A stretch of DNA of 64,000 nt from Clostridia bacterium (GTDB taxonomy: Bacteria; Bacillota; Clostridia; Christensenellales; Borkfalkiaceae): positions 1-64,000 of the forward strand of contig JAGHJS010000060.1 of assembly GCA_017886545.1 (NCBI GenBank), in the 5' to 3' direction. This document shows positions 20,252 through 41,943 of the stretch, piece by piece. The translations under genes were made by a program, and so were the position numbers. Each line of letters opens with the position of its first letter. Position 1 is the first letter of the stretch. Below the pieces are notes generated by a model. The model was given only the letters and a program-made list of their open reading frames with translations. It made no database searches and had not been told where the DNA came from.

Positions 20252-20447
20252 ACCCTTTCTCTCCTTGTTATTTTTTACTGCCGATTGTATTCTAACATAC
20301 GGTCGCGCGATAGTCAATGAACAAACGAAAAAAATTTTTTCCGTGAACGTTTCGACTTTTCATAAGACGAAAAAAAGCACGCCGTGCGTGCCTTTCTCCG
20401 CATGAAATTATGCCCTTCCCTGACGGAGCCGCCTGCCCTGCGGCCCG

Positions 20448-21347: not shown

Positions 21348-21388
21348 ACGCTCCTCCCGTTCTTAAACAGCCGCATTATCCTGTGCGG

Positions 21389-21445
21389 CGCTTTCGGCGC
21401 GCTGCGATCCGGCGCTTTCGGCGCACTGCGATCCGGCGCCCTTTG
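21389..21445. repeat. 24-bp tandem repeat (2 copies plus a partial)
   Basis: cggcgctttcggcgcRctgcgatc repeated. Confidence 0.7.
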
Positions 21446-21467
21446 CGCACTTTGAACGCGCCCGGCG

Positions 21468-21965
21468 CTACGCGTCAATGCCCTGTTCGCGCAGATACTC
21501 CGCCAGAATGCCCGCCGCCGCGGCGCACAGTTCGGGGCAGGGACGCTTTTTATAGTACTCCTGCGTGCGCGCCTCCGCCTGCGGCGCATCCGTCGCGCCC
21601 GTGCCCGCAAGCAGGTCGCGGCAGACGATGCAGCCGAACTTTTCGCGGAAACGCGCCGCGACTTCCTGCTCGCGCGCGTAGAGCGCGGACTTTTCCTCCA
21701 GCGTAACGTGATCCGCGTCGTAGAACAGCAGCCCTATCACCATGCACATGCCCGAGACCGCGCCGCACACTTCGCGCATCCTGCCCAAGCCCCCGCCGAG
21801 GGGCGCCGAAGCGCGCAAAAGCTGCTTTTCGCTCAGATCGACGAGGTCGGAAAAGGCGAGCACCACTGACTGCGAACAATTGTATCCTTTAAAAAAATTC
21901 TGCCTCGCGCGTTCTTCCCTGTCCATCGGGTTCTCCTTTCCGCTATTTTTGAAATATGCTTGCAT
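21468..21965 (-). CDS. C_GCAxxG_C_C family protein
   Basis: GYNCSQSVVLAF..LGGGLGRMREVCGAVSGMCMVIG..CIVCRDLL. Confidence 0.88.
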   Translation of the reverse strand: MQAYFKNSGKENPMDREERARQNFFKGYNCSQSVVLAFSDLVDLSEKQLLRASAPLGGGLGRMREVCGAVSGMCMVIGLLFYDADHVTLEEKSALYAREQEVAARFREKFGCIVCRDLLAGTGATDAPQAEARTQEYYKKRPCPELCAAAAGILAEYLREQGIDA

Positions 21966-22630: not shown

Positions 22631-24262
22631 TTATGCCGAAAGTTTGACGTCCTCATGCGGCACGTTCTGCTTGATCAGACGAATGAACGTTTCAGGATTT
22701 ACGACGACCACGTCTTCATCCAGGAGCCCGACCATCTCGACGACGTCGTTATAATCCATCGACCAGACATGCAGGTTCACATAGGTGTACCCTTCGATCG
22801 AGGTGGCGTCCGCGGGATAGGCGTTGATCTGATTGGCAATGCCCTGCGCCGTCGCGTTCCACATCGTGGCGCGGCATGTTACAAACGGTTTGCCGTTTTC
22901 AGACCAATAGACCGAACCGTGTTCACCGACATAGCTGTCCGCATAGGTGCAGAACAGGAACCCTTCAGCGTTCTCCATTTCGGAATAATACTTGATCGTA
23001 TTTTGCGAAAGACCGCTGTCAAGGATCTTCACGACGGAAAGATCGGTCTTGCCGAGATAGCCGTCCAGAACCGTGCAATACCGCTTGAGCGCCTCCACCG
23101 AATACGACTGCGGATAGGTATACCCCACCCCCGAAACGCTGCAGACAAAGGTATCCCCTGCCTTTGCATTCTTGTAAGTGTGCGCAAGGATGTTCGGCGC
23201 AACGCTGTACAGAGCGGGGCTGACGGACCAGCCGAATTCAAAATCGCCGCGCTGCGCTCCCATGTACTGCGATTGCTCGAACGTGCCGCCGTACCAGCAC
23301 TGCAGGTTGTCGCCGTCGCTGTTTACGATCGTAATATAGTGCTTATCCGTCGGATATGCGGAAAGATCGGTATCCGTTTCGTTCGGCTGCGTGAACTGCT
23401 CTTCCCCGTAGAACTCCGTGCAGGAGAAAACAGACATATTGTAGCAATAGTCGGAAGCCAGCGTAAAGCTGCCGTAATTGGAACTGAACCCGACGTCCGT
23501 CCCTTCATCCAACGGGCACCAGCCGTACACCGCACAGCCCGCGCACCACTCCTGTACCTTACCGCGGAAAGTCAGGCTCGGTACGTTGTTGCTCGTGATA
23601 AAATAGCAATAATACTTGTTCGCGATCGCCCAGTCGGTCAGCTGTACAAGACTGCCGTTCTGCTGTACGAGCCCGGAAGGCTCGAGCTTATCCTTGTATG
23701 TATCAAAACAGTCTTCCGCCGTCATCTCGGTAGCGTCGACCTTCTGCTCAAGCCCGTTCTCGTCCGCCCAGTTTTTGAGGGATTCGTCCACCATCGCGAT
23801 GCCTTCCGCCCCCGCGACCGTGCGGGCGCAGTTGGTCGATTCGCCGTCCGTCGAATCATAAAGAACATACCCCGTACCGATGTTCGCCTTATAGTCGGCA
23901 AGCATTTGGGCGACGGTAACGTCGGTATTCCCCTTGCCGTATTCCAATTCGGTCTCATTCAGCCAGGTTTCGTAGGCGTCCGGCCTGTAATGATAATATT
24001 TGGATTCGCCCTTCTGCGCAAACAAGCCCTGTACGGACTCCGCAAAGAATTCCTGCGCTTTGTTCAGGTTTTCGGTCCGCCCGTAGACGAGCAGGTCACC
24101 GTCCGTGATCGTAAAGGACTTGAAATATCCTTCCGCCTCCGGTTCATCGTCGCCGCCGTTATCGGACGGACTGCCTTCACAGGCAGCCATACCGAACAAA
24201 CTTGCAAAAGCCAGCAGCAATGCGAGCAGCAGCGATCCGACTTTGGCAAAACGTACTTTCAT
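22631..24262 (-). CDS. GxGYxYP domain lipoprotein, putative glycoside hydrolase (paralog 1)
   Basis: LFGMAAC lipobox; exact GVGYTYP; SDGDN; NGKPF; NLHVWSMDY. Confidence 0.85.
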   Translation of the reverse strand: MKVRFAKVGSLLLALLLAFASLFGMAACEGSPSDNGGDDEPEAEGYFKSFTITDGDLLVYGRTENLNKAQEFFAESVQGLFAQKGESKYYHYRPDAYETWLNETELEYGKGNTDVTVAQMLADYKANIGTGYVLYDSTDGESTNCARTVAGAEGIAMVDESLKNWADENGLEQKVDATEMTAEDCFDTYKDKLEPSGLVQQNGSLVQLTDWAIANKYYCYFITSNNVPSLTFRGKVQEWCAGCAVYGWCPLDEGTDVGFSSNYGSFTLASDYCYNMSVFSCTEFYGEEQFTQPNETDTDLSAYPTDKHYITIVNSDGDNLQCWYGGTFEQSQYMGAQRGDFEFGWSVSPALYSVAPNILAHTYKNAKAGDTFVCSVSGVGYTYPQSYSVEALKRYCTVLDGYLGKTDLSVVKILDSGLSQNTIKYYSEMENAEGFLFCTYADSYVGEHGSVYWSENGKPFVTCRATMWNATAQGIANQINAYPADATSIEGYTYVNLHVWSMDYNDVVEMVGLLDEDVVVVNPETFIRLIKQNVPHEDVKLSA

Positions 24263-24353
24263 GCGTCTGTCTCCTTATCGTTATGATCATGCCGCCGTAT
24301 CCGCGGCGGCAAAAGCAGCGCGCGCCCCGCGCGCGCTGCCCTTTAGCAACTGT

Positions 24354-27350
24354 TTATGCGGTTTCTTTGCCCGCCCAGTTAATGCGGAAGTAAGAGAGGT
24401 TGTAATCCTGCCCTACGCCGTTATCGCCCGAAGCGTTGTCGCGCACCTCGTACACAAAGGTGACCTGCTTGCCCGCGAGGCTGGCCGTGTCGTCGCCGAC
24501 GGCTTCGCGGTATGCCTGCGTCAGGCTGACTTCCTTTGCGCCGAGCGTGCTCGAAGTCGCCCAATCCTGCAGGACAATGTAGTACCCGTCCACATACATG
24601 GCAAGTTTGCACTTTGCGCCGCCGCCGATCTCCGTGGCGAGCGTCAGTTCATCCTGCGTATCGGGCATTGCGACGCACTTTGCGAACCATACGTTCGTAT
24701 TGCCGTTGCGCTTTTCATCGCCGCCGCCGTCGGAAGCATCGACCTGCAACTGACCTTTCGCCGTACCCGATTCACGGTCGATCGCCGACCAATGATAGTA
24801 CTGGCTGGTCTGCCACTGATCGCCGAGCATCCAGTCTTCCGTGCGTCCCTCTTCAAATTCGTTGGAATACGGATCTTCGCACAGGGTATCGTCGCCTTCA
24901 ACGATATAACGGTCGGTCACCCGGAACATATCCAGCTTGATGCCGATGCTGCCCGTCACTTCAAGTTTGACGGTCGCCTGTTTCCCTTTGTACTCGGGGA
25001 AATATTGCGCCAGCGGGAACGCGAACGCCTGCCAGCCGTCGCCCGTAACAGTCGCCGTATTCGTTCCTGCAACACCTTTCAGCGTTGCCGAAGCGATCAC
25101 CGTTTTTTCCACACCGTCTACCGTCATGGTCATCTTAAACGTTGTCGATTCGGACGCATTCGTGCTGTTGGCGCGCGCATAGAAGCTGATCCACACGTCG
25201 TCCACGTTGGGCAGTGTGAATGCCGCTTTGTTCGCCGTGCCATTGCCGGAAATGCCGATGTTCGTTTTGAAGGTAGGGTACACGTCGCTGGTCGCGTCGT
25301 CTCCAGAGTAATAGGTAACATCGCCGCTCCAATCCTCTTCCCAGAGCAGGAAGTCGTTTTCCAGCGGATCGGTCGGGATGACGGAAGGATCCTCTTTCAG
25401 ATCGTCCTCGGTGATGGTCTGCCCCGAACCGCTTGCGGGAATTTCAAACTCAGTGGAATCCGCCTGATCGGTCACGTTTTCGCGCATCATGTTCACGATG
25501 CAATCCAGCGAAACGACTTCAACGTTGTCATTGAGCATGCCGACGATCGTGCGGATATCCTCATAATTGTGCGACCAGGGGTGCACGTTGATGACGGAAT
25601 ACGCGTCGATGTTCGTGGGGTCGTGACCCGTAGCCGTAGCGGAATACATGTTGATCCTCGCCGCGATGTAGGCAGGCGTGGTGCTCCACAGCGAATCGCG
25701 GGGAACAATGAACGGCTTTCCGTTCTTCCAGTATACGCCGCCCGAATAAGCGCCGCCAAAGTACTTGTTGCCGTGGAGCACGAGTCCGCCCTCAAGCGAC
25801 TCGACCCCTGCGTACGCATTCAGCGTGCCGTAAATGCCGCCGCTGTAGTTTTCGGCGCCGATGATGGTCGTCACGCTCAGGTCAGAGCGTTTCAGATAGG
25901 TATCAAGGTTACCGAGGAAGGTGTTCATATACTCCGCACCGGCATTGTAGAAGTTACCGGCGTCGATGTACCCCTGCCCCGAAACAGGCGCACAGAAATA
26001 ATCGTTTTCCGTCGTGATGTTGCCATTGTACGCCGTATCCATGACCAGCGGCATGAGTTCGGCGATCGAAGGCGAAATGGACCAGGTAACGGCAAAATCA
26101 TCGTTCTCACGGCCCGTTGCGTTCATATAGCTCGTGGAGAAGATCGCCGTGTTCTGCCAGTACTGCGCATTGTCGCCGTCGGAAACGACGAACGCAACGT
26201 AATGTTTGCCCTGCTCCGCCTGCTTGGTGGTATCGTCGTTCGGCTGGGTGAAGCCGTCAGCCTGACGGAAATCTTCCGCAAGATGGAACGTGACGTTCAT
26301 GGAATAGTCGGTCGGAACAAGGAACTGCCCGTACTGGCTGAACAGCGCCACATCCTGCGTTTCATTGAAGGCATACCCGAGGATGGGGATGTTTTTATCG
26401 AGGAAGCTGTGGATCTGCTTGCGCAGCGACTGCGGCGCATTGATGTCGCTGTCATAATACACGTACATGTATTTGTTCATGACGCCGATATCGCGCACAT
26501 AGTAGTTGGTCAGCCCGTTCTGCACATAATTCTGATGGATCAGCCCACCCGAAGAAAGTTCCGTCATGCAGGCATTGAACAACCAGTAGTAATCAAACAG
26601 CCCGCTGGTCACATCCATCTTTTTGACCAGCCCCATCTCGTCGTATTTTTCGGTATCGTCTTCCGAGACCGGCAAAAAGCCCGTGATGCCCGCAAGGGTG
26701 CTGGCGACGTTTACCGAAACCTGCCCGGAACGATAGACGATATAGCCGGGGGAATTGTACCCCGCTTCTGCGGAATCCTGATCCTCTTCCTGATATGCGT
26801 TATACGCGCCGGAATCGTCTTTGAATCCCTCTTTCAGATCGATCTGGCTGCCCCATGTGCCGTCGGCTACCATCTCGTCCCAGCTGTCGATATACATCTG
26901 TACCGCTTCCTGAAGGGTAGACTCTTCGGCGGTAATACCGTATTTCTCCTCCGCCTCGGTCATGTAATACTGGTCCGCGTTGGTGCCGTTGGTGAGGTAT
27001 TTGCCGTCGATGTAGAAGGTGACTTCCTTACGGGCAAACAACCCCTGGATAGCGGATGCGGTATTGAGGTCGTCGTTGCTCATCTCACCGCCGTAGTTCA
27101 GCGTATAGACTTTTTTGTCCTCGCGCAGCGCGGTCGTCGCATAGTACGAAAAATCATCGTCGCCGGTGATGTCGCCGCCGCCCGGGTTATAGTTCGGATC
27201 CGCCTCGCCGCAAATGGTACAATATCCGTTTTCGTAATGGTGGGTATGTTCGCCGTCGCCCGTTTCCTTCGGAGCGCACGCGGCGGCAAACGAGAACAGC
27301 ATCGCAAAAACAAGCAGAATGCTTACGATTTTTGCAAGATGTTTTTTCAT
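24354..27350 (-). CDS. GxGYxYP-like lipoprotein with C-terminal carbohydrate-binding-like region (paralog 2, 998 aa)
   Basis: FSFAAAC lipobox; YVAFVVSDGDNAQYW; VSGQGYIDAGNFY; WKNGKPF; INVHPWSHNYEDI. Confidence 0.78.
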   Translation of the reverse strand: MKKHLAKIVSILLVFAMLFSFAAACAPKETGDGEHTHHYENGYCTICGEADPNYNPGGGDITGDDDFSYYATTALREDKKVYTLNYGGEMSNDDLNTASAIQGLFARKEVTFYIDGKYLTNGTNADQYYMTEAEEKYGITAEESTLQEAVQMYIDSWDEMVADGTWGSQIDLKEGFKDDSGAYNAYQEEDQDSAEAGYNSPGYIVYRSGQVSVNVASTLAGITGFLPVSEDDTEKYDEMGLVKKMDVTSGLFDYYWLFNACMTELSSGGLIHQNYVQNGLTNYYVRDIGVMNKYMYVYYDSDINAPQSLRKQIHSFLDKNIPILGYAFNETQDVALFSQYGQFLVPTDYSMNVTFHLAEDFRQADGFTQPNDDTTKQAEQGKHYVAFVVSDGDNAQYWQNTAIFSTSYMNATGRENDDFAVTWSISPSIAELMPLVMDTAYNGNITTENDYFCAPVSGQGYIDAGNFYNAGAEYMNTFLGNLDTYLKRSDLSVTTIIGAENYSGGIYGTLNAYAGVESLEGGLVLHGNKYFGGAYSGGVYWKNGKPFIVPRDSLWSTTPAYIAARINMYSATATGHDPTNIDAYSVINVHPWSHNYEDIRTIVGMLNDNVEVVSLDCIVNMMRENVTDQADSTEFEIPASGSGQTITEDDLKEDPSVIPTDPLENDFLLWEEDWSGDVTYYSGDDATSDVYPTFKTNIGISGNGTANKAAFTLPNVDDVWISFYARANSTNASESTTFKMTMTVDGVEKTVIASATLKGVAGTNTATVTGDGWQAFAFPLAQYFPEYKGKQATVKLEVTGSIGIKLDMFRVTDRYIVEGDDTLCEDPYSNEFEEGRTEDWMLGDQWQTSQYYHWSAIDRESGTAKGQLQVDASDGGGDEKRNGNTNVWFAKCVAMPDTQDELTLATEIGGGAKCKLAMYVDGYYIVLQDWATSSTLGAKEVSLTQAYREAVGDDTASLAGKQVTFVYEVRDNASGDNGVGQDYNLSYFRINWAGKETA

Positions 27351-27374
27351 CTGGTCTGTTTTCCTCCTTGCTTT

Positions 27375-28286
27375 TTACTTCAACCCGGCTATGTTGCTTT
27401 GGTTGAGGATATATTTCTGGAATACAAGATACATGATGATGATCGGGATCGTGATCAGGATCATGCCGGCAGAACGGACATACGTATCCGCATTGCCGCC
27501 GAAATTGGGGTAAAAACTCTGCATCGCAAGCTGTAAGGTATACAGCGAGTCGGAACCGGAGGTGGAATACAGCACCATCGGGAAAAGATACTCGTTCCAC
27601 GTTCCGATAAAGGTAATGATGACATACGTCATGATGATGGGCACCGACATGGGTACCACGATCGTGACGATTTTTTTCAGTTCGCCGCAGCCGTCGATGT
27701 CGGCGGCTTCAAGCACACTGTCCGGCACGGACGCCATGTATTGTTTGACGAGGAAGATGCCGAACACATTGACGATACCCGGCAGGATAATACCGAGGAT
27801 GTTGCTGTTGATACCGAAAAAGATCGTGATCTGATAGTTTGCGGCGAGCAGCACTTCACCGGGGATCATGAGCGTCGTCAGAAGCAACATGCTTACGATC
27901 CCTTTTCCGCGGAAATTGATCTTTGCAAGAACGTAGCCAACGACCATCACCACACAGAGGCTGAGGAACGTAAATCCACAGGTATGCGCAAGGCTGACGC
28001 CGAGCGCAAGATACAGGCGCGCCGACTCGATGACCGTCCAAAAATTTTCAAGGGTAAACGCCTCGAACCAGATGTAGACCTTCCCCACTTCCGGAAGAAA
28101 ATCCGGGCTGTGCGTCGCGTCTACCAGTTTTAGCCAGAAAGGAAGCAGCTGAATGACCGCAACGATCGTAAGGAAGACGATACTGATCACGTTGAACTGT
28201 ATCTCCTGCCGCCGCTGGCTTGCGCGCGTTTTTACTTTTTTTACCGAAACCGCGTCATTCAATGTTCGATTCCTCCTTCCCTGCAA
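27375..28286 (-). CDS. Carbohydrate ABC transporter permease (MalG-like)
   Basis: EAADIDGCGELKKIVTIVVPMSVPIIMT EAA loop; Q-rich C-term QKYILNQSNIAGLK. Confidence 0.92.
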   Translation of the reverse strand: MQGRRNRTLNDAVSVKKVKTRASQRRQEIQFNVISIVFLTIVAVIQLLPFWLKLVDATHSPDFLPEVGKVYIWFEAFTLENFWTVIESARLYLALGVSLAHTCGFTFLSLCVVMVVGYVLAKINFRGKGIVSMLLLTTLMIPGEVLLAANYQITIFFGINSNILGIILPGIVNVFGIFLVKQYMASVPDSVLEAADIDGCGELKKIVTIVVPMSVPIIMTYVIITFIGTWNEYLFPMVLYSTSGSDSLYTLQLAMQSFYPNFGGNADTYVRSAGMILITIPIIIMYLVFQKYILNQSNIAGLK

Positions 28287-29280
28287 TGACCTTTTGGATG
28301 ATGGACACGATCAGGATAAAGATGAACAGCACAAAGGCATAGGCGCAGCCCTGCCCGATGCGGGCGGGTGCATTGAACACCGATTTGTAGATGAGGAGCA
28401 TTGCCGACTGCGTGCTGTTGGCAGGTCCGCCGTCGGTGACCAGCTGCATGGGACCGAGCACTTTGAAGCCGTCGATGATGGAGAGCAGCGTGTTCAGCAC
28501 GAGCGCGTTCTTCATAAGCGGAAAGATCACACGGATGAAGATGCGGACGCGGCTCGACGTTTCGAGGCTCGCCGCCTCTTCATATGTATCGGGAATGGAT
28601 ACGAGCGTCGAATAGTAAATGAGCATCTTCTGGCAGAACCCGAAAAAGAACGGAATGACCATCAGCGCCCAGATCGCCGTGTTCGGATCTTCGAACCACG
28701 CGACGGGCGACCCGCCGCAGGCAATGATGATCTGATTCACAACGCCCGTATTATCCGACTGGAAAAGCGTCGACGTGATATCCGCGCCGACGACCGCCGA
28801 AACGAGCGACGGCCAGAATAGCAGAGCGAGGAACACTTTTCCCCCGCGCTTGATCGCTTTGATGAGGAACGCGCACAGGATGCCCATGAAGTTGTTGCCG
28901 ATCATCATGACGACCGTCCAGATGACGGTCACTTTCATGCCGTTCCAGAACGCTTCCGCCTGCGCCGACCCTGCCGTAAAGATGTTGATGTAATTATCAA
29001 ACGAAATGTTGTTGACAAAATCAAAACCGTAGCCGCCGCGCATATCGGTAAAGCTCGTGCAAAAAGCCCAAACGAGCGCGACGACAAAGAATACGCACCA
29101 CCAGACGAGCGGAATGCCGATCAGCGAATACGCAAGGATCTCCTTCTTAAAGCGCTGACGGAACGGCTTCTTTTTCGGCTTGCCTGCAGAGCCGGGCGCC
29201 AGCGGAACTTTTACAAGCTCTTCCGACACCTCTGCCCCCTCGGCGGCGAGCCTCTGCGCTTCAATGCTTTCGTTTTGCAT
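28255..29280 (-). CDS. Sugar ABC transporter permease (MalF/UgpA-like)
   Basis: IPDTYEEAASLETSSRVRIFIRVIFPLMKNALVLNTLLSIIDGFKVLGPMQLVTDGGP. Confidence 0.92.
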   Translation of the reverse strand: MQNESIEAQRLAAEGAEVSEELVKVPLAPGSAGKPKKKPFRQRFKKEILAYSLIGIPLVWWCVFFVVALVWAFCTSFTDMRGGYGFDFVNNISFDNYINIFTAGSAQAEAFWNGMKVTVIWTVVMMIGNNFMGILCAFLIKAIKRGGKVFLALLFWPSLVSAVVGADITSTLFQSDNTGVVNQIIIACGGSPVAWFEDPNTAIWALMVIPFFFGFCQKMLIYYSTLVSIPDTYEEAASLETSSRVRIFIRVIFPLMKNALVLNTLLSIIDGFKVLGPMQLVTDGGPANSTQSAMLLIYKSVFNAPARIGQGCAYAFVLFIFILIVSIIQKVIAGKEESNIE

Positions 29281-29343
29281 TATCCCCTCTCCTTTTCTCC
29301 CCTTCTTCCGCGGCGCGGGAAGCGCCGCGGAGACAAGTGATCA

Positions 29344-30642
29344 TCAATAAATTTCATTGATCGCACGCTGCACACGCGTATTCAGTGCCGTGCATTCCAT
29401 TTCGATATCTTCAGCAGTCTTGTACTTTTGCTGCACAAGATTGGTGAGGAAGGTATGCAGCTCCGTTTCAATATCCGTCCAGACGGGCGAACCGGGGCGC
29501 ACGACGGCGTTGTCGAGCTGATCGATGTACACCTGCCAGATATCGCCCGAATAGTGAGAGTCTTCCAACGCAGAGACCGTGGTGGGGATCAGGTTCTGCG
29601 GCGTTGCGAAAGCGAGCTGATATTTATCGTTGGAGGTAAGGAACGCCGCGAAGTCTGCCGCGATCTCAGAGTCGGCGTTCTTGGTCACGACCAGGCTGTA
29701 CAGACCGATCGTGCTGCCCGCATTGCCGCCTTCTGTAAAAGGAATGGACGTTGAATAGCCGACTTCCCATTCATACTGCTCGGAATACTTTTCGTAGTCC
29801 TCGATCTTCCAGGAGCCCATTTCGATGAAGCCGACTTTGCCGCTTTCAAACTTCGCTTCGGCAAAGGTGTTCGGCGCGTACTTGCCGAGTTCCGCAAGTT
29901 TTTTCGCCGCGTCCTTGCTGGCGTCGGTCGCAAGCTGCGCCGTTTTGAGATCGGCGGAGAGGATGCCGTCGCCGCCGCAGCGGTCGACAAACGCGAGATA
30001 CGACATCGCCGCCATGGACGTATTGCCCGTGCCCGAAGGAAGCGTAATGCCGTAATACGGGTCGTTTGTCGTCGTTTCGTCGTTCAGCGCATAGATGTCC
30101 TCGCACAGAGCGAGCAGTTCATCGTAGTCCGTCGGCAGCTTGATGTTGTCGACCGTGGTACCCTGCGCCTCGGCAATCAGCGTTTTGTTGTAGACCGTAG
30201 CCAGCACGTTTGCACTCATGGGCAGACCGTACAGCCCTCCCTCGTACAGGTTCGGCTCCCACAGCGAAGGAACATACTTGCTTTCCAGATCGTCGCAGCC
30301 ATACTCCGTAAGATCGGCGATGTAACCGTAATAGGCGAGCGTCTGCACATACACGTGATCGACGTACGCAATATCGGGAGCAGACGTACCGGACATCGCC
30401 AGAAGGTAAGCATTGAAGAAATCCGGCGTGGACTGCCCGATGATCTTGATCTCTACACCGGGGTTTTCCGCCTCATAGTCCTCTTTTGCCTGCTCGATCG
30501 CCTGCATCTCCACGCTGGAGCCAGGCCACCAGATCGTAATTTCGCCGTCACCGCCTTTTCCTCCTCCGCCGCAGCCGGCAAGAGCGAGCGCCGCCGTAAG
30601 CGAAAGAACGAGCGCACACAGCACGGAAAGTGCCTTTTTCAT
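29344..30642 (-). CDS. Extracellular solute-binding lipoprotein
   Basis: AALALAGCGGG lipobox; ITIWWPGSSVEMQAIEQAKEDYEAENPGVEIKI. Confidence 0.93.
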   Translation of the reverse strand: MKKALSVLCALVLSLTAALALAGCGGGGKGGDGEITIWWPGSSVEMQAIEQAKEDYEAENPGVEIKIIGQSTPDFFNAYLLAMSGTSAPDIAYVDHVYVQTLAYYGYIADLTEYGCDDLESKYVPSLWEPNLYEGGLYGLPMSANVLATVYNKTLIAEAQGTTVDNIKLPTDYDELLALCEDIYALNDETTTNDPYYGITLPSGTGNTSMAAMSYLAFVDRCGGDGILSADLKTAQLATDASKDAAKKLAELGKYAPNTFAEAKFESGKVGFIEMGSWKIEDYEKYSEQYEWEVGYSTSIPFTEGGNAGSTIGLYSLVVTKNADSEIAADFAAFLTSNDKYQLAFATPQNLIPTTVSALEDSHYSGDIWQVYIDQLDNAVVRPGSPVWTDIETELHTFLTNLVQQKYKTAEDIEMECTALNTRVQRAINEIY

Positions 30643-30779
30643 GAAATGAATCCTCCGATAAAAGTTTTTATGCCGAGAACGGCTTATTTTTTCTGTCTGA
30701 TCGGCTCACGCCGCCCGCAGGCATTCCGCCCGCGGGCAACGCGGCCATAAGAAGGAAAAAGAATGAAGCTGTCTGTTTT

Positions 30780-33700: not shown

Positions 33701-34832
33701 GGATGCCCGTGTACAGCGTATCCTCTACGGTCACCTTGATGGTGATCGAAGCCTCTTCAGGAACGTTCGTAACGGTAACGATCGTTTCGCCCGCCGCGTC
33801 TGCCGACCAGGTGCCGCTGTTGGGATCCAGCGTGAAGATGCCTTCCTTCGAATAGCTTGCCACCCACGTCGTGGACGACGCTTCTGCGGGAACAGGCGTA
33901 AAGGTCATGGCATACAGCGAAGCAAAGTAGGTCAGGTTCTCTTCAAGCGGAATCTGGTACTGCGTTTTGCCCGCACCGCCAGCAAGGATGGTCTCGCCCC
34001 TGTTGGACATGCCGTTCGTCATATCCCACGAAGTGCCCTTCGCCGTAACGAGTACATAGTCGTATTCGTCGGTGCTGTCCTCCGTCAGGTTCGCCTCAAT
34101 ACCCGTAAGCTTTGTGTACTCGGTAACGGTGACCTGCAGATACACCGTAAAGCCGCCCGCCTGTGCCGTACCGCGCAGAGCATAAGTGCCGATCTGCTCC
34201 GTCGACGTGATCGTGAGCTTCGTACCGTCCTGCGTTGCGGAGATCGCATCGCCGCCTGCGGTGAAGGTACCGTTTTCAATGGCGCCGACTTCCCATGTGA
34301 ATGTATTGTCCGCACCGTTCGGGCGTACAACGAGCGTATGTTCGGAGGAATTGCTCTCCGCCATCGAAACGGTATACGGGTCAGCGATGGTGCCCGTTCC
34401 GCCCCTCGTGTTTGAAATGCTTACGCCCGTTACGTCTTCATCCGCACCGGGATCTTCCGACGCCGTTACCGTAACGTTGATAACAAGGTCGTTCGCCTTT
34501 TCGGAAGCCTCCGAAACAGTAAGTTTTGCACTGCCTTCTGCAAGTGCTCTGACAGTGAGCTGCGTTCCGCTGACGCTACCCGTCGCCACTTCGGACGCAG
34601 AGCTTGTGACGGAGAAAGAATAGTCGGTAAGTGTGCCGACGATAAGGGTGTATGCACCGCTCTTCCCCTCCTCCAGCGTCAGGGAATACTCCCCGTCCGC
34701 ATCCGCCGTCTGCCCGCCGATGCCGATCGTCGCCTTCGTGTCGTCTGTAGACGGCTCGCAGGCGGCAAACGTGAAGCATACGCCGAGCAACAGCGCGAAA
34801 ACGATACAAAGCAATGCTTTTACTCGTTTCAT
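30780..34832 (-). CDS. 1350-aa secreted lipoprotein with multiple bacterial Ig-like domains
   Basis: LLLGVCFTFAAC lipobox; repeated Ig-like strands such as VESVTANPDAASVGQGGQYTVQTTVAPANATDKSLTYAV. Confidence 0.85.
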   Translation of the reverse strand: MKRVKALLCIVFALLLGVCFTFAACEPSTDDTKATIGIGGQTADADGEYSLTLEEGKSGAYTLIVGTLTDYSFSVTSSASEVATGSVSGTQLTVRALAEGSAKLTVSEASEKANDLVINVTVTASEDPGADEDVTGVSISNTRGGTGTIADPYTVSMAESNSSEHTLVVRPNGADNTFTWEVGAIENGTFTAGGDAISATQDGTKLTITSTEQIGTYALRGTAQAGGFTVYLQVTVTEYTKLTGIEANLTEDSTDEYDYVLVTAKGTSWDMTNGMSNRGETILAGGAGKTQYQIPLEENLTYFASLYAMTFTPVPAEASSTTWVASYSKEGIFTLDPNSGTWSADAAGETIVTVTNVPEEASITIKVTVEDTLYTGILSSAYAAETTSDKTGWNFDGFPDPWGEGDAEKAMALYSDWNLVMNKTTSDAGSTAEGGDGGQKIFYAGDPDRVYGVDMELRVDSSTGLNANTDNTIALMWAKVNMPAQATTFTIKIGTNTGNKDFLNYRVVFVAGDGSVSDISGGWIAKEEDGTGTNATYTIPESAKGKEGALVIEYALSKANDNIEAIVKDIQIATYTPVESVTANPDAASVGQGGQYTVQTTVAPANATDKSLTYAVTTAPETGYTTDITVNSNGVISVSPDAVPGAYTITITSNDNAEATDTFTLTVTEYVAVTEFNGTLSLGGREVNYGTAGQLDGAALTASYDANGIYTDPALTFAAQFNENASVVTYSVAVNGTGVAWNADNNTFTFNAVGTSEITITPTDNEDLAISFTVNVVEYQLVAGTHITSTSVGLMSADTSTLWANNAQMHNFYYNTVDKSHGNAKYNYDGDVMQFESHTVVTNNTNPVNVGYNYVSVGSDVNYLVFNVHGHSDDRILESSNFRVRVLTNDDGWTTATLLNWTTVASRWKQGDEWFTIALDVSAYQGKNIVILFEMTGGFQNGTGTYPKGSDSSAGAYLYLGNIRLLAEAPAGALTATGGQVEELRMYANASLAAAGWTVSANGSTGSYNTEKVYQPLTLTYAGSLSEATTLALTTTSFYSASVASSLYPWGVFPALNNSAASDAPTLMYTASDEGYFTIENGVITPVANGTGTLYVEAAAQNGESVTFEVKVVIAAVDKSVTIKEASRTIERGDSYTLSYETVPGAAEVTMTVTQKPDGATDDMFTLADGKFTPAANAVLGDYVITVALQDDPSVSGTVTVTVDNVTKWEDKEDILDDYIGWGVTGRCDSINEGADLVHQGIDTYLSKTVTLTDLNTLTLGARVFYRSNPDDAAKETPAVMYVSVVVDGEETRINANGYDDEITMTFDDAKFDARNEFVYDLSAYAGQTVEIRIGIDQGTHCVITDVALS

Positions 34833-34901
34833 GTCTGCTCTTTTTCCTCCTTAAATTTTTAATAAAGAACTGCAAAATGCAGGACTTTTTGGCTTAAATA
34901 T

Positions 34902-34917
34902 GCAAAAACGGTTTTCT
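34902..34917. promoter_or_regulatory. Second CG-centred operator-like site upstream of the Ig-like gene
   Basis: GCAAAAAC|GGTTTTCT. Confidence 0.5.
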
Positions 34918-35042
34918 GCCGAACAAAGGAAAGCGGAGCATTTTTATTGTATTTTTGTACAACGCTCGGCGAGCTATGCACGCCTCGCTTCCATCTGCTC
35001 CGTTTTCCTCTATTTTTGCCGCTCTTTTTCTGTCAAACACCT

Positions 35043-35082
35043 GCCTCTTTCGGTTATAACCGAAAGAGGCGACTAGTCGCCT
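35043..35082. promoter_or_regulatory. Two overlapping perfect palindromes in the leader of the Ig-like/transporter operon
   Basis: GCCTCTTTCGGTTA|TAACCGAAAGAGGC (35043-35070) and AGGCGACTAGTCGCCT (35067-35082). Confidence 0.85.
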
Positions 35083-35122
35083 GCCAAAATTTTGCGTCTT
35101 TTTCCGATTTCCTCTATTTTTT

Positions 35123-35173
35123 AGAAAATCGTTTTTCTGCCTTTATTGTATCACCAAACGTTCTGTTTGTCAA
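35123..35173 (-). promoter_or_regulatory. Sigma-A-type promoter (TTGACA-17-TACAAT) with LacI-type operator at the start site
   Basis: Reverse strand -35 at 35168-35173, -10 at 35145-35150; AGAAAATC|GTTTTTCT at 35123-35138. Confidence 0.7.
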
Positions 35174-35214
35174 TACCTTTTTTGAAAAAATTTTTTATCT
35201 TTTCATTTTTTGTT

Positions 35215-35246
35215 AAAAAGCCCCGCCGCGGACGCGGCGGGGAGCC
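35215..35246 (-). terminator. Terminator after lacI-family gene
   Basis: AAGCCCCGCCGCGgaCGCGGCGGGG. Confidence 0.65.
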
Positions 35247-35259
35247 GGCTCTGTATCGC

Positions 35260-36219
35260 TCAGACGACAAAGCAATCCGTACAGATCTGTTTCACTTCCG
35301 TATCGCCGTTGATCTCGCCGATAAGGATCTCCGTTGCGATCTCGCCGAGTTTACGGTAATCCTGCCGCGCGAATTTCCAGGGGATGCCGATGCCCGCGTT
35401 GTCTTCGCCCAGGGAATAGATGATGATGTCGCGCAGCGGATCGAGCCCCGCCGCCTCGGCTGCTTTGTAGATCCCGCGCGCGACCGTACCGTCCGAAGCG
35501 ATAAACGCCATCCCCACCTCGAGGAATGCCGCGGCGGCGCGCCGCCCTTCTTCTTCGGTGCTGTCTGCCGTATAAACGACCTCCGTACGCACGCCGCTCA
35601 AATCTTCAAACGCCTCACGGAACCCTTCTGCACGGTCGGCGGAGATCGTCTTGTTCTCTTCGCTGTTGACAAGGCAGAACTTGCGCACGCCCTGCAAATA
35701 CAGGCGGCGTGCCGCCTCTTTGACCAACTGCACGTTGTTCACGTCCACATAACTGATGTTGACCCCGTCTGCAGGTCTGCCGATGATGACGCAGGGAATG
35801 CGCTGCTGTTCGAGCTGCGAGATGCGGGCGTCTTCGGTGAGCGGCGTCATGACGATGGCTCCGTCGATCGGCGCTTTGTCGCGTTTGAGCATGGTAATGA
35901 CCGAATCTTTATCGATGCCGCTGTACACGAGCAGGTGCCGCCCGTACCGCGCCGCCGTACGCAGGCAGGCGACGATAAGATCGCTGTAAAAGCCGCGGAA
36001 TTTTACGTTGCTGTCCTCTTCGAGCACGAGCGCGATGATGTTCGTATTCCCGCGCGCGAGCGTCGACGCGTAAAAATTCGGCTGAAAGTCCAGCTCCTTG
36101 CAGGCGTCCAGGATTTTTTGTTTGAGCTCGGGACTGACATATTTTTTACCAGTCAGGGCGTTGGATACGGTCGATTTTACCACCCCGCACCGTTTTGCCA
36201 CGTCGTTGATCGTTACCAT
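35260..36219 (-). CDS. LacI family transcriptional regulator
   Basis: MVTINDVAKRCGVVKSTVSNALTGKKYVSPELKQKILDACKELDFQPNFYAS. Confidence 0.96.
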   Translation of the reverse strand: MVTINDVAKRCGVVKSTVSNALTGKKYVSPELKQKILDACKELDFQPNFYASTLARGNTNIIALVLEEDSNVKFRGFYSDLIVACLRTAARYGRHLLVYSGIDKDSVITMLKRDKAPIDGAIVMTPLTEDARISQLEQQRIPCVIIGRPADGVNISYVDVNNVQLVKEAARRLYLQGVRKFCLVNSEENKTISADRAEGFREAFEDLSGVRTEVVYTADSTEEEGRRAAAAFLEVGMAFIASDGTVARGIYKAAEAAGLDPLRDIIIYSLGEDNAGIGIPWKFARQDYRKLGEIATEILIGEINGDTEVKQICTDCFVV

Positions 36220-36231
36220 ACCATTCCCTCC

Positions 36232-37743
36232 TTATACCGCATGCGGTACGTTTTCCCGTATCAGAGCGAGCAGTTCTTCCGCGTATACGACTTCGATATG
36301 CGGCGCCAGGCGTGACAGCACATAGTCTACCCTGCGCATATCCATCGTCCACGGATGCACGTTCAGGAATGTATAGCCGCATTCGGAATGAATGTCTGCC
36401 TGCCGCGCATTGAGCTGCCGCACGATGCCGTCCAGCCATTCGTCCGTGACCTTGGCGGGGTCGCAGGACGGGTGCCACAGCGAAACGCCCACACTCACGA
36501 ACGGTTTGCCGTTCGACCAGAAGATCTTCCCCTTCCCGCTCTCGTAGCGGTCGGGGTCGAGCTGCCAGATGCCGCCCTCGATCTGTTCCTGCGCGGAAAA
36601 ATACGCGAGCCTGCGCTCTGCGTTGCCGCCGCCCGTATGGGCAACGTTATCCAACAGCGCGAGCACATGCAGGTCCGCCTCACGCATCGCCTGCGCCGTT
36701 TGTTCGGCATAGTGCGGAAGCAGCTCTTCGGGATAGGTCATGCAATTTGTGTACCCTATTCCCGAAACGCCGCAGACGAACGTGTCGTTCTTTGCCGCGG
36801 CATACGCCTTCCCGAGCGCGGGCGGGCAGATGCGCGCCAACAAGGGCGGCGCGGTCCAACTCATTTTACGGGAACACGCTCCCGCCGTGCGCTGCCCGAA
36901 CAGCCCGTCACCCAAAAAATTGCGTTCCAGCCACTGCACGTTGTCCCCGTCGCTGACGACAACGGCAAGGTAATGCTTCCGCGGGTCGGCTTTTATTTTG
37001 GCAGGCACACAATGCTGCCGCTGCCGTACGGGTGCCTCGCCGCCGAAAAAACTGTGGTTGCAGGACCAGTCGCTCGGCACCACATAGTCGCCGAAGCGCG
37101 AAAGAGTACGGACGAACGCGATTTCGTTGTCCGTCCAGCCGTATACGGGGATGCCGCGCTCCGCCCAGCCGAGCACTTCTTCCAAAAAGGCGTTATCCTC
37201 GCCCGTCTTTGCAAAAAAGGTGAATGCGCCGCAGGCGATCGCCGCGTCGCGCAGATGCGGGCGGTACGCCTCGCCCTCCGTGACCTGATGGAACAGGCAG
37301 TCGCGTCGGAGTTTGCCGCGGCAGCGAAGCCAGACGGTACGCTGGCGTTCCGCATCGCCGCCGCGCACATCTGCCGCATCGAACGCAACGGGAAGTCCGT
37401 ACTTTCCGAGCGACGGCAGCTGCAAACGAGGCACGCCGAGATACCCTTCCGCCGCGCAGACGGCTGCGGCAAGGTTGATAGAAACGTCGCCTTCCGCGTA
37501 GTCAAACACCGCAAGCGCAGGCAGGTCGGGCGCAAAAGCGTCCAGCGCCTCCGCAAGGCGCATGCGCCTGTACGGAAGAGTGAGATAGTCTGTATATCGG
37601 TCAATGTCCAGGCAGATCTTTTTTCCGCCGCGGTTGACGGCGCCCTGTAAAAATACCGCGAGGGCAAGCTCTTCGGGTGAGAGCGTTTCCGTTCCGATCA
37701 GGCAGACGGGCGCCGCGCCGGAAAGAACGCCTTCCCCGCTCAC
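36232..37743 (-). CDS. GxGYxYP-like protein without signal peptide (paralog 3)
   Basis: YLAVVVSDGDNVQW; CGVSGIGYTNCMTYP; FWSNGKPFVSVGVSLW; TFLNVHPWTMDM. Confidence 0.8.
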   Translation of the reverse strand: MSGEGVLSGAAPVCLIGTETLSPEELALAVFLQGAVNRGGKKICLDIDRYTDYLTLPYRRMRLAEALDAFAPDLPALAVFDYAEGDVSINLAAAVCAAEGYLGVPRLQLPSLGKYGLPVAFDAADVRGGDAERQRTVWLRCRGKLRRDCLFHQVTEGEAYRPHLRDAAIACGAFTFFAKTGEDNAFLEEVLGWAERGIPVYGWTDNEIAFVRTLSRFGDYVVPSDWSCNHSFFGGEAPVRQRQHCVPAKIKADPRKHYLAVVVSDGDNVQWLERNFLGDGLFGQRTAGACSRKMSWTAPPLLARICPPALGKAYAAAKNDTFVCGVSGIGYTNCMTYPEELLPHYAEQTAQAMREADLHVLALLDNVAHTGGGNAERRLAYFSAQEQIEGGIWQLDPDRYESGKGKIFWSNGKPFVSVGVSLWHPSCDPAKVTDEWLDGIVRQLNARQADIHSECGYTFLNVHPWTMDMRRVDYVLSRLAPHIEVVYAEELLALIRENVPHAV

Positions 37744-39788
37744 TTTTTCCGCACCATTGCGGCAAAGTCGCCGCCCTGCATCAGTTCGGCATAGCCGATC
37801 TTATTCTTCATTGCCGCGGGATCGAGCTTGTCGCGCTCGATGACGAGCGTTTTGCCGTTCGCCAACCGCACGGTGATCTTTTTGAAAAGGGGCAGGCTGA
37901 GCGTGAAATCCGCGCGCGAAGGGCTCATCTGGTACAATCCGAGCGCCGTGAGCACGAACCACGAAGCGAGCGAGCCGTTGTCTTCGTCGCCCGGATAGCC
38001 GTCGGGCGTATTGCGGAACGCCTCCGCCAGCCGCCCTGTAAGCTGCGCCGTCTTTGCAACGTCGCCCAATTCCGCATAGATATACGGGATATGGAAGGAA
38101 GGCTGGTTGGAAATAGCGCACTGTCCGAACTTTGCGTCCGCCATTTCACTCATTTCATGGATCTCGCCGCCGTAGCCGCCGATCGTGAAATAGCGCGGCG
38201 AAGCGACGAGCTCGTCGATCTTTTCGGCGAGTTTCCCGCCGTACAGCTTGTTCAGCCCTTCCATATCGTGATAGACGGCAAAGGAGCTCTGCCAGGCGGA
38301 ACCTTCGGTATAATCCCTGCCCCAGGCGTAACAGTCAAACGCTTCGTCGCGGAAGTTCCCCTTTTCGTCCTTACCGCGCATAAAGCCGACGGACGGGTCG
38401 AACAGGTGCCGGTAGTTATGCGTATAGCCGTCGTAACGCGCGGCGATCTCTTTGTTGCCGAGCTTGTGCGCCGCCTGCGCGATGCAGTAGTCGCCGTAAC
38501 AGTTATCCAGCGTTTCGTTCACGCTCTCTTTTGCGGCGGTGTACGGGATATAGCCGAGCGCACGGTATTCGCGCACCGCTTCGCGCCCGACCCCGGGCTC
38601 GTCGCAGGCGCAGTCGCCGTCGTGCACAAGCGCTTCGAGCATCTTTTCGCCCAGCGCCTGCGGCACGATGTCCTTTACGATCGCGTCGGCGAGCACCGCC
38701 TCGACCAGCATGCCCGGCATGCAGTTGAAATTGTTCGGGCACAGCCATTTCGGCAGCCAGCCGCTATCCTTATAATAATTATAACAGCTCTCCGCGACCT
38801 TTGCATACAGGTCCGTATCCATGAAAGAAAGATACGGGTATAAGGTGCGGTATGTATCCCAGAAGCCGTTGTCCACATACATGTAGCCGTCTACGATCTC
38901 GCCCGTTTCCAGGTTGAGGTGGCGGACGCGCCCCTCGGCGTCCTCCTCCCAGAACCTGCGCGGCCACAGATACGCGCGGTACATGCTCGTGTAAAACACG
39001 GCTTTGCGCTCTTCGTTTTCGTCCTCGACCTCGATCCCGGAAAGGTAGCGCTCCCATTCGTCGCGCGCCGCGGCGGAGAGCGATTCAAGCGTTTTCCCCT
39101 CGAGCTCACGGCGATAATTGAGAATCGCCTGCCCGGCGGAGAGGAAGGACGTTGCAAAGCGGCATTCCGCCTGCCGCGCCGTCGTAACGAGGGAGACTGC
39201 ATTTTTGCCGTACTCCGCCGTGAACGGCACGTTCAGCGTAAAGACAAAATATTCTTTGAGCTCGCCGTATGCCACGGGATGCGCGGCAGCCGTCGTATAG
39301 CCCGAGACCATGCCGCTCGCTTCGTCATAGGTAAACACCGTGCGCTCGTCGCCGATGATGTTGACACGGTTGCACGTTTCGTCCGAAAAGGTGAACCGGA
39401 TCGCCGCGCCGCTGTTGGTCGGCGCAAGCTCAAAGGTATAACGGTCGCGGTAGACATACCCCTTCATATAAGCGGGTTCGAGAACGCAGCCCTCGTTGTC
39501 AAAAGACGACCATCTCTTCTCTTCCTCAAAAAAGAGTTTCCCGCGCTGCCCCGTGATGATGAGCTGCCCGTAATCCTGCAGCCAGGGCGACGGCTGATGC
39601 GTGAGGCGTATCCCTTCAAAACTCTTTGACCGCGGAGAATAGAACCAGGGTGAAGCCGCCTTTTCGTTCTGTAAAGTGAACGACGCCATGCCGTGCGGCA
39701 CCGCCGTGAGCGGCAGAACGTTGCCGCTCGAAAACCGCCTTACATTTTCAGTCCCCAATTTAACGTTAACATAGCGATAGTTTTTCAT
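37740..39788 (-). CDS. GH92 family glycoside hydrolase (alpha-mannosidase-type)
   Basis: VNVKLGTENVRRFSSGNVLPLTAVPHGM; GGYGGEIHEMSEMA..PDGYPGDEDNGSLASWFVLTALGLYQMSP. Confidence 0.88.
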   Translation of the reverse strand: MKNYRYVNVKLGTENVRRFSSGNVLPLTAVPHGMASFTLQNEKAASPWFYSPRSKSFEGIRLTHQPSPWLQDYGQLIITGQRGKLFFEEEKRWSSFDNEGCVLEPAYMKGYVYRDRYTFELAPTNSGAAIRFTFSDETCNRVNIIGDERTVFTYDEASGMVSGYTTAAAHPVAYGELKEYFVFTLNVPFTAEYGKNAVSLVTTARQAECRFATSFLSAGQAILNYRRELEGKTLESLSAAARDEWERYLSGIEVEDENEERKAVFYTSMYRAYLWPRRFWEEDAEGRVRHLNLETGEIVDGYMYVDNGFWDTYRTLYPYLSFMDTDLYAKVAESCYNYYKDSGWLPKWLCPNNFNCMPGMLVEAVLADAIVKDIVPQALGEKMLEALVHDGDCACDEPGVGREAVREYRALGYIPYTAAKESVNETLDNCYGDYCIAQAAHKLGNKEIAARYDGYTHNYRHLFDPSVGFMRGKDEKGNFRDEAFDCYAWGRDYTEGSAWQSSFAVYHDMEGLNKLYGGKLAEKIDELVASPRYFTIGGYGGEIHEMSEMADAKFGQCAISNQPSFHIPYIYAELGDVAKTAQLTGRLAEAFRNTPDGYPGDEDNGSLASWFVLTALGLYQMSPSRADFTLSLPLFKKITVRLANGKTLVIERDKLDPAAMKNKIGYAELMQGGDFAAMVRKK

Positions 39789-39873
39789 GTTCTGCTCCGC
39801 AAAAAATAAATTCTTTCCGCACCGTCCGTTCTCCTTCCCTTCCTCAGGCGGGAACGGCGATGTTTCTATATTT

Positions 39874-39921
39874 ATTATAAAATAAGAAAAACGGTTTGTC
39901 AATACAAAAAACCGTTTTTTC
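39874..39921 (-). promoter_or_regulatory. Consensus promoter TTGACA-17-TATAAT with two flanking LacI-type operator sites
   Basis: Reverse strand -35 at 39897-39902, -10 at 39874-39879; AGAAAAAC|GGTTTGTC (39885-39900) and AAAAAACC|GTTTTTTC (39906-39921). Confidence 0.72.
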
Positions 39922-40007
39922 TCTATCAAAATTCACATTTTTTTTGAAAATCAAACTTTTTCAGGCGAGCCGCCGTTCAAAACGGCGATTCGCCCGCATT
40001 TGTCCGC

Positions 40008-40967
40008 TCATTTCCTGCACATCGCCAGGCGCGCGGCGCCGCAGAGCCCCGCGTCGTTGCCGAGGCTTGCCGCGACGATCGCAACGGGCGCGTAGTCCGC
40101 GCCGCCGAACAGCCAGGGCGAAACTTTTTCGCGCAGGGGCGCAAGCAGCGTTTCCCCTTCCGCGCATACGCCGCCGCCGAGCACGATCGCTTCGGGGCGG
40201 AAGATGTTCACAAGGTTTATAACGCCTTCCGCAAGGTAGGAGATGTACTCGTCCACGACCTGTTTTGCCGCAGCGTCGCCCGCGCGCATGCCGTCGAACG
40301 CCGTCTTCCCGTCCACGTTCTCCAAGCTGCCCGCGATCTTCCACATGGCGCTCTCTTTATGCGCCACCATGCTCTCGCGGGTGCGGCGGATCAGCCCCGT
40401 CGCAGACGCGTACGCTTCAAAACAGCCCTTGCGCCCGCAGGTGCAGTCCCAGCCGCCGCGTTCGATGACCATATGCCCGATCTCGCCGCCTGCGGAACGG
40501 AACCCTTCAAACAGTTCGCCGTTGAGGATGACGCCGCCGCCCACGCCCGTACCGAGCGTGATAAAGACCATGGAGCCGAACTGCTTGCCAGCGCCGCAGA
40601 AGTGTTCGCCCAGCGCCGCGGCGTTCGCGTCGTTCGTGATGCACACGGGCAGCCCCAGCCGCTCCTGCACCGCGCCGCACAGCGGCACGTTTTCCCAGCG
40701 GATGTTGTTGCTGTACACGATGACGCCGTGTTCCGCGTCGATCAGCCCGGGCGACCCGATGCCGACGCCCGCGACCTGCCCTTCCTGCAGCCCCGCGCGC
40801 GAAGCAAGGTCTTTGACCAACTGCGCCATATCCGCCGCGATCGCGCCGTAAGGGCGTTCGCGCCCCGTCGGGATCTTATCTTTGATGACGATACGCCCCT
40901 GCTCGTCTACAATGCCGCCCTTTACAAAGGTGCCGCCGAGGTCCAGCCCCGCATAATACTTTTTCAT
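40008..40967 (-). CDS. ROK family sugar kinase
   Basis: YAGLDLGGTFVKGGIVDEQG; GTGVGGGVILNGELFEG; HMVIERGGWDCTCGRKGCFEAYAS. Confidence 0.95.
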   Translation of the reverse strand: MKKYYAGLDLGGTFVKGGIVDEQGRIVIKDKIPTGRERPYGAIAADMAQLVKDLASRAGLQEGQVAGVGIGSPGLIDAEHGVIVYSNNIRWENVPLCGAVQERLGLPVCITNDANAAALGEHFCGAGKQFGSMVFITLGTGVGGGVILNGELFEGFRSAGGEIGHMVIERGGWDCTCGRKGCFEAYASATGLIRRTRESMVAHKESAMWKIAGSLENVDGKTAFDGMRAGDAAAKQVVDEYISYLAEGVINLVNIFRPEAIVLGGGVCAEGETLLAPLREKVSPWLFGGADYAPVAIVAASLGNDAGLCGAARLAMCRK

Positions 40968-41887
40968 TCTTTTTCTCCTTCGCCCGTCAGAATGATGCGC
41001 GCGTTCCCCTCAAGGGTGAACGCCTCGCCGCAGGGAACAAAAAAGCTGTCGCCCGCGCGGAAGGGCACGCCGTCCGCCCTGCCCTCGCCCGAAAGCACGT
41101 TCACTGCCGTGAAAGAACGCTCGTTCTGCTCGCTATACGTCCCCGCAAGGCTCAGTTCACGGCAGGAAAAATACCTGCATTCGGTCAGCTTGCGCAGCGA
41201 ACCGCCCGCAACGCTCTGCGGCGCGCCGCTGCCCGTTTCGTCTTTGAACGCCGAAAAGTTGATGACCTGCACCGCCTTTTCCACATGCAGCTGGCGCGGC
41301 TTGCCGTCCGCGCCGCGGCGGTTGTAGTCGTACACGCGGTAGGTGACGTTGCTGCTCTGCTGCACTTCGCAGATGACGCATCCCGCGCCGATCGCATGCA
41401 CCGTGCCCGCTTTGATGAGGTAGCAGTCCCCTGCTTTGACGGGGATAAAGTTCAGAAGCTCCTCCACCGTGCCGTCCGCAACGCGCTGCAGAAATTCCTC
41501 TTTGCCCGTATCGCGGCGGAAGCCGCAGTAAATGCCCGCGCCCTCGTCCGCCTGCACGATGTACCACATCTCCGTCTTGCCGTTGTCGTTTTCCTCGCGG
41601 CGCGCGAACGCGTCGTCGGGGTGCACCTGCACGGAGAGGTTCTGCGCCGCGTCTATGTATTTGATAAGGACGGGGAAGGCGCTCCCCTCGCGGTCCACGG
41701 CGTTCGGATGCGCGCGCAGATAATCGGCGAACGTGCCGCCGCCTTCACACACGCTCTGCCCGTCGGGGTGGACGGAAACTTCCCAGCTTTCGCTCATCTT
41801 TTTGCCGCCGTTGTCCCTTCCGAACAGCGGACCCAGCTTCATGCCTCCCCAAATGTAATCTTTGAGGACAGGATGCAAACGGATCAT
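40964..41887 (-). CDS. manA: Type I mannose-6-phosphate isomerase
   Basis: PVLKDYIWGGMKLGPLFGRD; SVQVHPDDAFARREENDNGKTEMWYIV. Confidence 0.93.
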   Translation of the reverse strand: MIRLHPVLKDYIWGGMKLGPLFGRDNGGKKMSESWEVSVHPDGQSVCEGGGTFADYLRAHPNAVDREGSAFPVLIKYIDAAQNLSVQVHPDDAFARREENDNGKTEMWYIVQADEGAGIYCGFRRDTGKEEFLQRVADGTVEELLNFIPVKAGDCYLIKAGTVHAIGAGCVICEVQQSSNVTYRVYDYNRRGADGKPRQLHVEKAVQVINFSAFKDETGSGAPQSVAGGSLRKLTECRYFSCRELSLAGTYSEQNERSFTAVNVLSGEGRADGVPFRAGDSFFVPCGEAFTLEGNARIILTGEGEKE

Positions 41888-41914: not shown

Positions 41915-41943
41915 ATTATAACAAATCGTTTCGCCTTTTGCAA
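41915..41943 (-). promoter_or_regulatory. Promoter TTGCAA-17-TATAAT upstream of manA/ROK
   Basis: attata 41915-41920, ttgcaa 41938-41943 on + strand. Confidence 0.6.

Follow-up and report, generated by a model that had tools for sequence, protein, structure and literature searches.

Known GxGYxYP systems and comparison with a Clostridia locus

The GxGYxYP family consists of presumed sugar-cutting enzymes and is reported to be strongly enriched in gut metagenomes. Its association with glycoside hydrolase family 92 (GH92) and ROK genes, together with the prediction that its members are hydrolases, was published in 2014, with no activity found (PMC4071793). From the structure of the member BT2193 (3SGG), Rigden et al. 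proposed an active site made of Glu272, Asp331 and Asp333, with Asn334 and Tyr394, and left open which Asp is essential (PMC4071793). Two further described systems come close to the one studied here: the mannan-responsive alpha-mannan locus PUL69 of Bacteroides thetaiotaomicron (BT3853-BT3862), which contains two GxGYxYP genes and GH92 (PMC4071793), and the N-glycan locus of Streptococcus pneumoniae, with EndoD and ABC_NG (PMC5215778). Here, we describe a locus with three GxGYxYP genes, named GxG1, GxG2 and GxG3, in a window of 64,000 nucleotides, i.e., the whole stretch analyzed (contig JAGHJS010000060.1, positions 1 to 64,000, assembly GCA_017886545.1), from a Clostridia bacterium. This locus is likely to be a mannoside-utilisation regulon of a Gram-positive bacterium, in which the GxGYxYP proteins would act as enzymes.

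As in BT2193 and the family at large, the three proteins have the GxGYxYP domains, fold and putative Glu/Asp/Asp site, and the neighbourhood recalls the GH92, GH38 and ROK neighbours described in Caldithrix abyssi, in PUL69 and at BT2200 (PMC4071793). However, the present locus is a Gram-positive one of the ABC (ATP-binding cassette) importer/LacI type, with three ancient paralogues that appear to share one regulon, one of them cytosolic, and GH38 was the commonest partner of the family in the genomes sampled here. PUL69 is instead a Gram-negative polysaccharide utilisation locus (PUL) with GH99, and no cytosolic GxGYxYP protein is described in PMC4071793. With the S. pneumoniae locus are shared GH92, a ROK kinase and an ABC importer for mannose-rich glycans, as well as GH38 and GH125, which are found elsewhere in the Clostridia genome. 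In contrast, no EndoD (GH85) was found here; the locus has instead a large lipoprotein of Ig-like type and the GxGYxYP proteins, and LacI lies next to the enzymes.

The source assembly comprises 2.06 Mb in 91 contigs and is 85% complete. The whole locus, including all three GxGYxYP genes, is encoded on the minus strand, in the transcription order ManA, ROK kinase, GH92, GxG3, LacI, the Ig-like lipoprotein BigLP, the solute-binding lipoprotein (SBP), permease A, permease B, GxG2 and GxG1. A first-pass annotation, which did not mention the strand, had reported the three GxGYxYP open reading frames at the coordinates given below, amid an ABC importer, an Ig-like lipoprotein, LacI, GH92, ROK and ManA; the three frames were borne out and all these neighbours were present by Pfam and NCBIfam profiles.

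Family membership and putative active site

The family was defined as PF14323 with PF16216, PF20957 and PF20958. GxG1 (543 aa, 22631-24262), GxG2 (998 aa, 24354-27350) and GxG3 (503 aa, 36232-37743) matched PF14323 with E-values of 3.2e-55, 1.2e-33 and 3.4e-44, and scored 188, 117 and 152 bits, respectively, against a Pfam gathering cut-off of 27 bits for GxGYxYP_C. All three N-terminal subdomains were above the Pfam cut-off in GxG1, two of them in GxG2 and the third one in GxG3, and GxG1 additionally matched 3SGG (1.4e-42). The membership of the second and third paralogues, on which the first-pass annotation depended, is thus carried by significant Pfam matches. These three genes are the only GxGYxYP genes in the source genome as assembled (85% complete).

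All three proteins contain SDGDN, NGKPF and N[LV]H[PV]W[ST], arranged in the same order, and the signature motif is exact in GxG1 only (GVGYTYP), GxG2 and GxG3 reading GQGYIDA and GIGYTNCMTYP; both points had been read correctly beforehand. Of 113 family sequences, 72 have the second Tyr of the signature motif and 87 its Pro; in BT2193 itself, the motif position is occupied by GSSYIFP (PMC4071793). Therefore, the exact motif is not strictly family-defining, and the degenerate versions of GxG2 and GxG3 are, judging from these alignments, ordinary for the family. The idea that motif degeneracy reflects a lost function was rejected, as the putative active-site residues are invariant and the motif varies family-wide.

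By alignment with 3SGG, the BT2193 site corresponds to E253, D316, D318, N319 and Y381 in GxG1. The putative active site of GxG3 comprises E207, D265, D267 and N268, and the putative catalytic Glu/Asp/Asp is kept in all three proteins. Among the 113 aligned sequences, the Glu and the second Asp were each conserved in 113/113, the first Asp was found as Asp in 109 and as Glu in 4, and the Asn and Tyr were kept in 108 and 109, respectively. Because of its absolute conservation, the second Asp (Asp333 in BT2193) would be favoured over the first as the essential residue.

Probable surface location of two paralogues and cytosolic location of the third

Signal peptides were judged by a simple scan and not by SignalP. 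Lipobox signals were detected in GxG1 and GxG2 and none in GxG3, whose orthologues in four loci of other genomes (L032, L079, L145 and L090; L numbers designate comparison loci) are also devoid of signal peptide. The AlphaFold2 model of GxG3, with a predicted local distance difference test (pLDDT) score of 92.9, spans the entire 3SGG fold, and 3SGG was its only strong PDB match (E 3.5e-34, template modelling score 0.82), CE4/NDST deacetylase barrels being weak Foldseek matches only. In a quick tree of 73 GxGYxYP domains, with support from the Shimodaira-Hasegawa-like approximate likelihood ratio test only, the three paralogues fell into three deep clades, each with orthologues from other genomes. 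A tandem duplication within the locus was rejected on this basis. Furthermore, GxG3 is directly followed by LacI in the window and in L032, L034, L079, L090 and L145. The assignment of two copies to the surface and of one to the cytosol, made in the first-pass annotation, is therefore supported by signal peptides, orthologues and the shared operator described below.

The C-terminal region of GxG2 (residues ~655-998) was modelled as a tandem beta-sandwich with a pLDDT of 77, the best PDB match being a tandem of carbohydrate-binding module (CBM) family 22, and forms a predicted tandem jelly-roll, CBM-like region. This C-terminal third (24357-25388, minus strand) is strongly conserved, with an unusual DGGGxEKRNxNTN block kept in seven loci.

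These features bear on a reading in which the GxGYxYP domains bind glycans or serve as scaffolds and only GH92 cleaves. Such a role would account for the extra CBM-like jelly rolls on GxG2, for two surface lipoprotein copies adjoining a binding-type lipoprotein and for the fact that no activity is reported for family members (PMC4071793). Nevertheless, a surface binder would have no need of the single-domain cytosolic clade, and a Glu and a second Asp kept in every one of 113 proteins of about 30% identity display the pattern of a catalytic centre. We consider a purely binding function quite improbable.

A shared operator-like palindrome links surface and cytosolic genes

Within the region, promoter matches scored highest at three minus-strand sites, located before GH92-GxG3-LacI (TTGACA-17-TATAAT, 39874-39902, 12/12 match), before BigLP-SBP-permease A-permease B-GxG2-GxG1 (TTGACA-17-TACAAT, 35145-35173, 11/12) and before ManA-ROK (promoter-like site TTGCAA-17-TATAAT, 41915-41943, 10/12). 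GH92 and GxG3 overlap by 4 bp, as do ManA and ROK, and the LacI gene (35260-36219, minus strand; LacI 7.8e-14, plus a sugar-binding domain) starts 12 bp past the end of GxG3. The main LacI-type putative operator, the CG-centred palindrome AGAAAAACGATTTTCT (35123-35138, minus strand), directly follows the -10 box of the BigLP promoter, and L032 and L034 have exactly the same palindrome despite otherwise diverged intergenic regions. Five sites resembling AGAAAAACGATTTTCT at ≤3 mismatches were counted in the window, against 0.38 expected. Among the operator-like sites, one is located in the BigLP leader (34902-34917; GCAAAAACGGTTTTCT on the plus strand), with a counterpart at L032:4221. The GH92 promoter has two CG-centred operator-like sites (39885-39920), one within the spacer (39885-39897) and one upstream of the -35 box (39906-39920), and this pair is also found at L032:9238 and 9259.

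Close operator variants precede GxG3 and SBP in L079 and lie between divergent GH38 and GxG3 in L145. Others are found before SBP, GxGYxYP genes or both in L090, L095 and L098, and L039 and L041 have such variants close to LacI and SBP; in distant GxGYxYP loci, their counts were mostly well above the shuffled expectation. The intergenic region of L145, between GH38 and the divergent gene of the cytosolic GxGYxYP protein, measures 167 bp (9102-9269) and contains two operator-like sites. No clear matching site was found in L071, L073, L074 and L094, all with the BigLP-GxG2-GxG1 block, the single near-match, L074:15979, lying inside the ManA gene; hence, regulation may differ there. The palindrome shared by the promoters of both operons suggests one LacI regulon, to which LacI would bind.

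Partner proteins and candidate substrates

GH92 (37740-39788, minus strand) has both domains of its family (PF07971, 1.9e-115; PF17678, 6.8e-20), and its closest solved relatives are the alpha-1,2-mannosidase 6dwo (6.6e-142), and 5swi, the Enterococcus faecalis and S. pneumoniae enzymes, respectively. Its start is probably at 39788 rather than at the longer reading frame start 39929, since the latter lies upstream of the 12/12 promoter match; from this likely start, no signal peptide was detected. ManA (40964-41887, minus strand, best start 41887) is assigned at equivalog level as a class I mannose-6-phosphate isomerase (TIGR00218, 142.7 bits vs a cut-off of 116.2). The ROK-family sugar kinase (40008-40967, minus strand; ROK 5.4e-80) scored just below the cut-off of the NCBIfam ROK glucokinase, and its sugar was therefore not assigned.

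The importer consists of permease B (27375-28286; BPD_transp_1 2.4e-15), permease A (28255-29280; BPD_transp_1 1.3e-6) and the SBP (29344-30642; SBP_bac_8 3.6e-33), whose nearest solved chains are mostly sugar binders; all are on the minus strand. BigLP (30780-34832, minus strand) is a 1350-aa lipoprotein of Ig-like or beta-sandwich type with one weak Big_2 match (0.0088), and its orthologues are found in the same gene order in other loci. It was considered as an unrecognised enzyme and rejected as such: no enzyme domain was found by Pfam, NCBIfam gave no match at all, and its PDB sequence matches are Ig-like only. A function as surface glycan binder is probable. Beyond GxG1, an adjoining locus (17660-21965) encodes a GH51 arabinofuranosidase, a 1-phosphofructokinase (TIGR03828, above cut-off) and a C_GCAxxG_C_C redox protein, in an order also kept in L033.

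Elsewhere in the source genome, GH38, GH125 and GH130 were found, GH38 and GH125 on other contigs; GH85 (PF03644) had no match in this 85% complete genome, and GH20, GH29 and GH18 had none among the locus genes. With no GH85 match but with GH38, GH125 and GH130 present, N-glycans, fungal mannan and other mannosides are all candidate substrates. A narrower version of the mannoside reading supposes that the locus serves N-glycans of host or dietary origin, as in S. pneumoniae, and that GxGYxYP proteins replace EndoD-like steps. The closeness of GH92 to 6dwo and 5swi points this way, as do the GH38, GH125 and GH130 of the genome and the resemblance to the S. pneumoniae CPL, which has GH92, GH38, GH125, ROK and a co-occurring ABC importer (PMC5215778). 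On the other hand, fungal or plant mannans fit the same genes, and neither GH85 in the 85% complete genome nor GH20, GH29 or GH18 among the locus genes was detected. This specialization is possible but doubtful. Of the "mannoside/N-glycan locus" proposed by the first-pass annotation, mannoside use is strongly supported, and N-glycan is kept as one candidate substrate only.

Association with mannosidases in other genomes

The recurrent genomic association predicted in the first-pass annotation was found in related as well as distant genomes. The block BigLP-SBP-permease A-permease B-GxG2-GxG1 is also present in L069, L071, L073, L074 and L094, with ManA and/or GH38 in L073/L074, and GxG3-LacI-ABC recurs in L079, L090 and L145. 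GxGYxYP genes occur in 8/36 other genomes of the genus. Among the 23 genus genomes searched for all three families, GH38 was present in 6/6 with GxGYxYP vs 3/17 without (one-sided p 0.0008, the genomes not being independent), and GH38 or GH92 lay within about 10 kb on 9/13 GxGYxYP contigs of these six genomes, for 0.65 expected under uniform placement. In Paenibacillaceae, 94/250 genomes have the family; at 88 GxGYxYP loci from 50 of these 94 genomes, GH38 was found within 10 kb in at least 40 cases (3 of them also with GH92), for 0.93 expected under uniform placement. A Pfam tally of 139 neighbouring reading frames from 20 GxGYxYP loci, not selected by function, gave 14 GH38, 2 GH92 and 2 GH130 proteins among the matches listed, as well as ABC permeases, SBPs, LacI, ROK and phosphomannose isomerase. 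Other glycosidase families accounted for at most one protein each among these matches, besides weak GH57 matches that are probably GH38 proteins. In addition, GH125 occurs in a Paenibacillus GxG-GH38-GH92 locus and GH130 near GxGYxYP in four loci.

Several observations weigh against a mannoside regulon with enzymatic GxGYxYP proteins. Enrichment relative to uniform placement overstates the association, because carbohydrate genes cluster and loci share descent, and about half of the Paenibacillaceae GxGYxYP loci have no mannosidase nearby among the matches listed. Rigden et al. report failed activity attempts on mannan-PUL proteins (PMC4071793), and no glycosidic-bond hydrolysis was reported for any GxGYxYP member in the literature searched, most subscription papers being outside this search. 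In G021, the genome with the closest synteny, neither ROK nor ManA was detected next to GH92, and ROK-ManA looks like a separate transcription unit. Finally, a Clostridium sensu stricto clade has GxGYxYP either by itself or in fusion with a PTP-like phytase domain; no mannosidase was detected in the vicinity, and usually no ABC set either. Because of this clade, the family is not mannose-only. One such fusion is L083:8246-10723; L096 was tested and is not fused.

The phytase fusion also suits another reading, in which the target is not a plain alpha-mannoside (e.g., a mannosyl conjugate with phosphate, inositol or methyl) and GxGYxYP acts on its non-mannose part. The occurrence of GxGYxYP without mannosidases and the recurrence of URO-D-like genes beside GxG-GH38 loci (7 proteins) would be in line with it. 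However, all assigned enzymes of the window locus (GH92 and ManA) fit plain mannose metabolism, and neither phytase-like nor URO-D genes were found among the window genes scanned. A modified mannoside is an unlikely target. The URO-D-like genes recur next to GxGYxYP loci of the genus, mostly with GH38, and were located at L039:5495-6514, L041:15705-16733, L043:18247-19320, L047:853-1833 and L047:11224-12255, and methyl-group or corrinoid chemistry on a glycan is possible. L047 also encodes an RCC1-repeat protein with a hydrophobic N-terminus, a probable signal sequence (12252-13832), beside a divergent GxGYxYP gene.

Proposed pathway and significance

In the mannoside-utilisation regulon that we favour, the surface lipoproteins BigLP, GxG1 and GxG2 would retain and trim an extracellular mannose-containing glycan, with flow presumably directed inward. 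Once taken in by the ABC importer, the fragments would be fully degraded inside the cell by GxG3 and the alpha-mannosidase GH92, the released mannose entering glycolysis via the ROK kinase and ManA. Both operons, the surface/transport one and GH92-GxG3-LacI, are most likely controlled by the LacI repressor, which would act on the CG-centred operator common to them. More tentatively, and with somewhat less than even confidence, GxGYxYP may be a new glycoside hydrolase family, or a related cleaving enzyme, directed at a mannose-containing linkage that GH92, GH38 and GH125 do not attack. Dedicated surface and cytosolic subfamilies would then stand under one mannoside repressor, with GxG3 acting on the fragment delivered by the importer.

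Compared with what has been described, the new elements are a conserved cytosolic GxGYxYP subfamily next to LacI, a footprinted putative operator uniting surface and cytosolic copies, and a quantified GxGYxYP-GH38 link. The Clostridium phytase fusions mark where the mannoside inference should stop. For this part of the family, the GH38 link and the co-located GH92, GH125 and GH130 genes restrict the class of substrates to mannosides. Moreover, GxG3 is devoid of signal peptide and apparently co-transcribed with GH92 and the LacI gene, which limits its candidate substrates to the cargo of the ABC importer. GxG3 thereby provides a soluble single-domain protein for assay, and speaks against a role confined to surface binding.

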